Source: Chitinophaga pinensis | Lineage (GTDB): Bacteria; Bacteroidota; Bacteroidia; Chitinophagales; Chitinophagaceae | Assembly (NCBI GenBank): GCA_945860605.1 | Contig: CAMAQL010000005.1 | Span: 1 to 52,669 of the forward strand | DNA length: 52,669 nt | Reading direction: 5' to 3' | Part shown: piece by piece, positions 11,776 through 13,793 of the stretch | Position numbering within the stretch: position 1 is the first letter of the stretch | How the letters are laid out: each line of letters starts with the position of its first letter | Notes under the pieces: model-generated | The model's database searches: none | Told to the model about the DNA's origin: nothing | The model's input: the letters and a program-made list of their open reading frames with translations, nothing else | Program-made: the position numbers and the translations under genes

Positions 11776-12726
11776 ATGGAATCATATGTAGTAGGCGTCG
11801 ATATCGGCGGAACAGGTACAAAATTTGGAATTGTAGACAAAGATGGTAATGTCTTATTCTCTAGTGAGATGTCTACTAAAAAGCATCTTCAAGTTGACAC
11901 ATTCATAGACGAATTGCATGAACATTTGTCAGCAATGATAGAGAAAGTAGGTGGATTTGGTCGTATCAGAGGAATTGGTGTTGGCGCGCCTAATGGCAAT
12001 ATCTATACTGGCACGATTGAGTATGCCCCTAACCTTCCATGGAAAGGCATTATTCCATTTGCAAAAATGATGCAGGATAAATTTAAAATCCCAGTAAAAT
12101 TAACCAATGATGCTAACGCTGCAGCTGTAGGCGAAATGATGTACGGCGCAGCAAAAGGAATGAAAGATTTTATCATGATTACCTTAGGGACGGGTGTAGG
12201 AAGTGGTATCGTAGCAAATGGCCAATTGATCTATGGTCATGATGGATTTGCTGGTGAATTAGGACATACTGTGATTATTCCAGATGGTAGAATGCACCAT
12301 GGTACAGGTAAGAAAGGATCACTTGAAAGTTATGCATCTGCAACTGGAGTAGCTGAATCTGCAAGAGAATTATTAAATCAATCTGATCGTCCTAGTGTCT
12401 TGAGGACAATTAATATTGATGAAATTACATCAAAAGATGTTTTTGAAGCCGCTGTTAAGGGAGATGAAATTGCAAAAGAAGTATTTGAATTTACTGGGAA
12501 AATATTGGGTATGTCTTTAGCCAACTTTGTGATGTTCTCCAGTCCAGAATCTATCATCTTATTTGGTGGATTGACAAAAGCAGGTGATATGATTTTAAAG
12601 CCAACAAGGGAACATATGGAAGCCAACTTAATTGAGATCTTCCAGAATAAAGTAAAAATATTAATCAGTCATTTAAAAGAATCAGACGCCGCCATATTAG
12701 GTGCCTCGGCATTAATGTGGGAGTAA
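11776..12726 (+). CDS. ROK family glucokinase-like protein
   Basis: 316 aa; VGVDIGGTGTKFGIVD, TLGTGVGSGIV, GFAGELGHTVI ROK motifs (zinc site diverged). Confidence 0.88.
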   Translation: MESYVVGVDIGGTGTKFGIVDKDGNVLFSSEMSTKKHLQVDTFIDELHEHLSAMIEKVGGFGRIRGIGVGAPNGNIYTGTIEYAPNLPWKGIIPFAKMMQDKFKIPVKLTNDANAAAVGEMMYGAAKGMKDFIMITLGTGVGSGIVANGQLIYGHDGFAGELGHTVIIPDGRMHHGTGKKGSLESYASATGVAESARELLNQSDRPSVLRTINIDEITSKDVFEAAVKGDEIAKEVFEFTGKILGMSLANFVMFSSPESIILFGGLTKAGDMILKPTREHMEANLIEIFQNKVKILISHLKESDAAILGASALMWE

Positions 12727-12786
12727 AATACAAATACACAAAATTATAAAAATTTAGTACATGATGTATTTGTATTTTACTCCCAC
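12717..12786. repeat. Perfect 22-bp inverted repeat spanning a stop codon
   Basis: GTGGGAGTAAAATACAAATACA (12717-12738) is exactly the reverse complement of TGTATTTGTATTTTACTCCCAC (12765-12786); 26-nt loop contains AAATT-ataaa-AATTT. Confidence 0.95.
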
Positions 12787-12806
12787 TGCTTCAATAAATT
12801 GAAGCA
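12787..12806. repeat. 9-bp hairpin directly abutting the 22-bp inverted repeat
   Basis: TGCTTCAAT-aa-ATTGAAGCA. Confidence 0.85.
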
Positions 12807-12837
12807 TGTGAGACTACTTAAAATATATAATTATAAT

Positions 12838-12868
12838 AAAAAAGGCCACAATGAATGTGGCCTTTTTT
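12838..12868. terminator. Bidirectional terminator between ROK kinase and lipA
   Basis: AAAAAAGGCCACA-atgaa-TGTGGCCTTTTTT perfect stem. Confidence 0.85.
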
Positions 12869-12869
12869 A

Positions 12870-13793
12870 TTATGATGTAGCTAATGCTAATTCTTCTAAA
12901 TATTTATTTCTCCCCCAGCCCTTAATGACGTGCTTTTCTGAATGATAAGACGATCTTACCAATGGCCCACTTTCTACATAGTCAAAGCCTAATTCATAGC
13001 CAATAGTTCTTAGTTCAGCAAATTCATTTGGGTGAACGAATCTTTGAACAGGTAAATGTTTCTTAGTCGGTTGTAAATATTGACCAATAGTTAACACATC
13101 ACATCCAACACCCACTAAGTCTTTCATAGTTTGTATCACTTCATCTTTTTCTTCGCCAATACCCAACATGATACCTGTTTTTGTACGCATGCCGCCTTTC
13201 TTTAAGGTCTCTAGCACTTCTAAACTTCTTCTGTATTTTGCTTGTACTCGCACACGTTTTGTATTGCGCTCCACTGTCTCCATATTATGACTCACTACTT
13301 CTGGAGCCGCTTCAATGATTCTTTCTATTTGTTCTTTGATCCCTCTAAAATCTGGAATCAATGTTTCCAATGTGGTATCAGGCGTCAATGCTTTAATGGC
13401 TTTAATTGTATTGGACCATATAATAGAACCACCATCTGGTAATTCATCTCTATCTACACTTGTTAAAACTGCATGCTTTACTTTCATTAAAAAAATCGCT
13501 TCTGCAACACGTTGTGGCTCGTCCCACTCCACTGGCTTTGGTCTACCTGTTGCCACTGCGCAGAACTGACAACTCCTTGTACAGATATTACCCAGTATCA
13601 TAAATGTGGCTGTTCCTTCTCCCCAACACTCGCCCATATTAGGACAATTACCACTCTCACAAATCGTATGTAATTTATGTTTGTCTACTAAGCCTCTTAC
13701 GTGTTTGTAACTTTCTCCAATAGGTAATTTAACCCTCAACCAATCGGGCTTCTTAATATGTTGTTCTGCTGGTACAATCGGTAGTTCTTGCAT
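12870..13793 (-). CDS. lipA: Lipoyl synthase
   Basis: 307 aa; [13 protein letters not shown] and [15 protein letters not shown] cluster motifs. Confidence 0.96.

Follow-up and report, generated by a model that had tools for sequence, protein, structure and literature searches.

Why should the stop codon of a sugar kinase gene lie inside a long and perfect inverted repeat, and what keeps the two arms of such a repeat complementary when one of them carries the end of a protein and the other does not? This question is raised by a locus of a freshwater bacterium, a member of the Sediminibacterium-like Chitinophagaceae. The repeat was noticed in the window, that is, the whole stretch of 52,669 nucleotides analysed here, and the preliminary description proposed that template switching had duplicated the gene end in inverted orientation. 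The structure of an RNA is normally proved by covariation.

Results

The repeat lies at the end of a ROK family sugar kinase gene of 316 aa (positions 11776 to 12726, plus strand), identified from its open reading frame and from Pfam PF00480 (E = 1.2e-58), with TIGR00744 scoring below its cut-off. Since the gene upstream encodes an MFS sugar transporter of the glucose/galactose or fucose type, the transcript carrying the kinase is probably a sugar uptake/kinase operon. On the plus strand, the left arm A (12717–12738) comprises one base of an ATG codon, the last two codons TGG GAG, the TAA stop codon (12724–12726) and 12 nt beyond it, and orthologous arms occur in relatives. A spacer of 26 nt found by the repeat search (12739–12764) separates it from the right arm A′ (12765–12786), which tracks A in 16 species with the same layout. 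As had been described, the 22-bp arms are 100% complementary and a second hairpin abuts them exactly. This hairpin, B (12787–12806), consists of 9 bp with a 2-nt spacer when read as an inverted repeat, and its stem shortens to 8 bp, closed by a UAAA loop, when it is folded as RNA. The 5-bp stem reported within the loop of the main repeat is present in the sequence as AAATT/AATTT, but it is missing from the minimum-energy fold, where a weak 4-bp stem takes its place. B is followed by A2 (12807–12820), a degenerate second copy of the gene end (TGTGAGACTACTTA in the window, TGTGGATTAACTC in relatives). Should A be occupied, A2 can pair with A′ and so enclose B.

The earlier remark that neither hairpin is followed by a T-tract was confirmed, and a standard terminator is excluded for the repeat: no GC-rich stem runs directly into a T-tract, and the sequence from 12787 onward is TGCTTCAATA. 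The true terminator, which had gone unmentioned, is a separate element at 12830–12876, beginning 23 nt beyond the second hairpin. It is intrinsic and bidirectional, composed of an A-tract, a GGCCACA/TGTGGCC stem and a T-tract, and it is common to the ROK gene and its convergent neighbour lipA (lipoyl synthase; 12870–13793, minus strand). In the window species, the stop codon of lipA falls within the A/T-tract of the terminator arm (12870–12876), and its coding region is a few codons longer than the conserved part common to most relatives. The predicted fold of positions 12700–12880 has an energy of −74.8 kcal/mol (z = −13.3), to which the terminator contributes.

We scanned 935 gene ends of the window's genome, covering about 1.08 Mb of 1.64 Mb, for repeats that start at least 3 nt inside the gene and cover the stop codon. 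Only two had a repeat longer than 10 bp, namely the ROK gene (22 bp) and an ABC transporter permease gene (24 bp), whereas the longest such repeat obtained with shuffled downstream sequence in the control for these ends was 11 bp. In the relative G033, a stop-covering repeat of more than 9 bp was present at one of 295 gene ends, which is that of the orthologous ROK gene (16 bp). The idea that stop-codon palindromes are a genome-wide habit is rejected by these counts.

The convergent ROK/lipA junction is retained in nearly all near relatives, and the repeat occurs only in the small-genome Sediminibacterium clade. Of the 63 loci examined, the window included, 17 have a stop-codon repeat. Sixteen of the 17 repeat-bearing species have the arrangement of the window, often with a different sequence. 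In layout 1 (nine species, including that of the window), TGTGGGAGTAAAATAC... is followed by the right arm, GCTTCAA-TAAA-TTGAAGC, TGTGGATTAACTC and the terminator; the spacer, 26 nt in the window, is only 3 nt in the more distant species of this layout. Layout 2 (seven species) is exemplified by GGAGTAAGAACAATGC-tat-GCATTGTTCTTACTCC, then GAATTCAT-TAAA-ATGAATTC, TGGATTAA and the terminator, sometimes with tandem hairpins between TGGATTAA and the terminator. L041 has nothing but a terminator-like repeat over the stop codon, and it is only in L041 and L044 that the stop-codon repeat is itself terminator-like (A-tract, GC stem, T-tract). In L054, L066 and L067, tandem arrays of short palindromic or AT-rich units (for example TCTACCATATTTTGGTAAAATTATAT, with a period of 26) are located about 60–200 nt past the ROK stop codon, between the second hairpin and the terminator; they represent the growth of hairpin arrays at this junction.

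Many sister species have nothing between ROK and lipA, often not even a terminator. On the ROK tree, the element is missing in 44 of 61 species, including sisters about 2% apart, and its presence differs between the very near sisters L046 and L237. At least 12 changes between presence and absence are required on this tree, which is unrooted and so counts gains and losses together. Since most relatives do without the element, any function that it has is dispensable. Two outcomes had been set against each other beforehand, covariation of the arms and a right arm specific to one lineage. Both were observed: the arms co-vary, and the element is confined to a single clade, within which it is often missing.

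The stems of the 17 species contain 289 Watson-Crick pairs, no G-U pair and two mismatches, that is, near-perfect arms that change in concert as in a quasipalindrome. Coding constraint keeps TGGGA in the left arm, which leaves the noncoding positions and the wobble base of the last codon as the informative ones. The wobble base is G, A, T or C depending on the species, and it is matched in the right arm in 16 of 16 cases, changes between Glu and Asp included. In an alignment of 12 pairs across 16 species, 186 of the 192 positions are paired, compared with a mean of 143.5 and a maximum of 173 when right arms were swapped between species (2000 swaps); positions beyond +3 may not be strictly homologous between the two layouts. 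Double transversions (G-C to T-A or to C-G, A-T to T-A) are common among the pair changes, and these offer no route through a G-U intermediate. In the terminators of the same junctions, 18 of 680 positions are G-U, whereas none of the 429 positions in the two hairpins is (P = 0.0003), a contrast that is slightly inflated by the heavier G-U penalty used in stem finding (−1) than in terminator scoring (−0.3). Additionally, the loop reads AAA in L083 and L087 and TTT in L098 within the same flanking stem, the arms of L083 and L098 being identical. This difference appears to be an inversion of the 3-nt spacer, and spacer inversions have been reported as a mark of template switching between the arms of a repeat (PMC8604942). 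Such an apparent loop inversion and the extension of arms are the extent of the multi-base evidence at the ROK locus.

A multi-base change was observed at the other palindrome of this genome, located at the end of the ABC transporter permease gene (G000 C41:11935–11984; L197), with arms of 24 bp and a TT loop. Compared with the relative L208, whose protein is 97% identical, this gene end carries a G to A substitution and 18 inserted nucleotides. Together they give 24 nt that are exactly the reverse complement of the right arm, which is itself unchanged, 21 nt of it being already present in L208. The other relatives lack the insertion and have G or T at the substituted site. The derived change is therefore the reverse complement of the other arm, as defines a quasipalindrome event, and a single template switch would explain it, in what looks like a near-textbook case. 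Since this repeat lies about 105 bases from the contig end, a check of the assembly is advisable. In relatives (L210, L212), the palindrome at the permease end is shorter or the gene end is duplicated in tandem. A second copy of the permease 3′ end, 93% identical and without the palindrome, is found on the minus strand at another contig end of the window's genome (C38:12551–12724) and may be a strain variant or a paralog.

The region downstream of the stop codon is unusually conserved. From the right arm to the terminator, a stretch of about 90 nt that includes the second hairpin, layout-1 species of two distant clades are 87–97% identical (83–103 aligned bases, gapped columns uncounted), while synonymous sites are saturated between the same clades, the 4-fold degenerate sites of ROK being 26–43% identical and the third positions of lipA about 24–39%. 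The conserved block ends at the gene borders, because the flanking third codon positions are near random between the same species. For the same reason, there is no support for the idea that the junction and its flanks recombined recently as a unit. When 102 ortholog 3′ regions of the window's genome were compared with those of G083 (L091), a distant congener, the junction was outscored only by regions containing tmRNA and tRNA. The other high-scoring regions that we inspected were mostly unannotated coding starts. An exception is a junction of convergent genes (L129:4155–4215 on contig C1 of the window's genome, L272 in G083), where a long hairpin without a T-tract lies directly after the stop codon, is accompanied by a separate terminator and is conserved in the distant relative.

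Discussion

We favor the explanation that the repeat is an inverted duplication of the ROK 3′ end, which was probably made and kept perfect by template switching during replication. The earlier proposal of such an origin is well supported by the co-changing arms of 17 species, the absence of G-U pairs, the loop inversion and the event at the second locus. Elsewhere, template switching is established as a process that creates stems, maintains them and makes quasipalindromes perfect (PMC8794818, PMC7202029). At the ROK locus, the nascent strand would fold back or jump to the other strand during DNA replication, copy one arm from the other and then return. Repeated switching would homogenise the arms, so that an alteration of the last codons, or of the bases directly following the stop, would enter both of them together, and the same events could extend arms, invert the loop and add palindromes such as B, A2 and the tandem hairpins of relatives. 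The ROK mRNA would be expected to fold into a stable stem that encloses the stop codon and lies 5′ of the separate true terminator. That template switching, and not compensatory selection in two steps, mainly maintains the repeat at the ROK locus is our inference. Several observations weigh against it: part of the left-arm sequence is explained by coding constraint, and B is not a copy of nearby sequence. Moreover, the junction is convergent and read on both strands, and G-U pairs would also be removed if selection acted on both RNAs.

A further objection is that homogenisation cannot by itself slow evolution, yet the right arm, B and the terminator are highly conserved. Since homogenisation alone predicts no such conservation, either purifying selection on the 3′ UTR and terminator or transfer of the element between species is needed, and the pattern suggests that additional selection acts, the simplest target being the 3′ UTR of the transcript. 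The regulatory roles raised in the preliminary description (an RNA stem that sequesters the stop codon, protection of the 3′ end, a DNA cruciform) may therefore be considered: the conserved noncoding part hints at some function, whereas the many species lacking the element show that it can be done without. A rival explanation is that the element is a selected 3′-UTR RNA, possibly the body of a 3′-UTR-derived sRNA ending at the terminator, and composed of a helix P1 around the stop codon, a helix P2 whose loop is UAAA, a linker and the terminator. Such an RNA would stabilise the 3′ end of the ROK mRNA or yield a regulatory RNA, and compensatory mutations would preserve its stems. The rank of the junction among the 102 ortholog 3′ regions and the confinement of the conserved block between the gene borders agree with this explanation, as does the fact that layout-2 species replace the stem of B yet usually keep the UAAA loop and the TGGATTAA that follows it. 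However, its stems are devoid of G-U pairs, and the element is lost or gained repeatedly, even between very near sisters. A search of Rfam 15 retrieved no family at its gathering threshold, the best score (42.8 bits against a cut-off of 88) being a generic long-hairpin match to a microRNA model. Covariation and conservation above the neutral level are both seen, but covariation would equally result from template switching, and many species lack the element. A selected RNA is a possibility to which we give about half the weight of template switching.

Somewhat more doubtful is a specific form of it, a structured and hitherto undescribed 3′-UTR RNA specific to this Sediminibacterium clade, whose first helix is half protein-coding and whose A′:A2 fold could sense translation termination. 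If true, a coding end and a UTR would evolve as one palindrome. The corresponding mechanism would be a translation-sensitive switch, in which a ribosome on the stop codon covers A and leaves A′ to pair with A2 around B, while A pairs with A′ in the untranslated RNA, the two folds exposing different 3′ ends to nucleases. Folding without the left arm indeed pairs A′ with A2 on either side of B, so that hairpin B becomes longer; in most of the nine species tested, the extended stem has a one-base bulge. However, because A2 resembles a duplicate of A, this pairing is automatic and perhaps a by-product. A2 is degenerate in several species (L045, L237), and the convergent orientation of the downstream gene leaves no obvious target of regulation. 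Such a switch seems improbable to us.

A mobile or dispersed palindromic repeat (REP- or MITE-like) inserted at the gene end would account for the patchy presence, the sharp borders and the high identity between distant clades. In contrast to what this predicts, there is one copy per genome at one locus, and the arms carry the last codons of the host gene itself. The search for further copies that the preliminary description called for revealed no second copy of the element in the genome. The hairpin-B and layout-2 motifs are confined to the junction, apart from one unrelated match, and an RNA model (R1) run against 299 genomes of the family gave clear matches only at the ROK/lipA locus of the window's genome and of G033, the weaker ones being partly terminator-only or low-scoring full-model matches. 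We regard an inserted repeat as very unlikely. As for chance or an assembly artefact of one metagenome-assembled genome, the window's genome is indeed an assembly of 114 contigs, but this explanation can practically be dismissed, because 16 independently assembled genomes share the layout, and chance is excluded by the scan of gene ends.

The palindrome is therefore real, discrete and clade-specific; it spans a stop codon and lies in an unusually conserved 3′ UTR. In this natural bacterial series, the covariation reaches the last codon of the protein without G-U intermediates, and because of this, one-step copying during replication can be distinguished from selection on RNA. With dozens of sequenced relatives that have or lack the element, the upkeep of bacterial stems by template switching becomes directly testable. 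The junction is also one of the best-conserved noncoding 3′ regions of the clade, hence a candidate RNA.

Several known systems resemble this locus in part. Like the E. coli terminators at stop codons recorded in a survey of inverted repeats (PMC6060812), the element is an inverted repeat at a stop codon; unlike them, it has no T-tract, and its terminator is separate and downstream. The structured 3′ UTR of a sugar-uptake transcript recalls the 3′-UTR-derived sRNAs of sugar operons, such as MalH (PMC8081044), from which our case differs in phylum and sequence and in being known from sequence alone. The RNA stems attributed to template switching (PMC8794818) share with it the reverse-complement copies that give perfect stems and the compensatory changes without G-U intermediates, whereas the RNA function here is putative. 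The inverted repeats of yeast genes (PMC8604942) also show homogenisation of arms, inversion of short spacers and coding changes (here Glu/Asp at the last codon); in our case, the setting is a bacterial gene end and a 3′ UTR with a conserved second hairpin and a terminator. Also similar are the hotspots of template-switch mutation at quasipalindromes of E. coli thyA and of lacZ reporters (PMC7202029), in which imperfect repeats are perfected arm from arm through multi-base concerted changes. Unlike these hotspots, the palindrome described here spans a natural stop codon and persists across many species, and it is known by comparison instead of by measured mutation. The mechanism has precedents; what is new is the coupling of a coding end to an arm in the UTR across many species.
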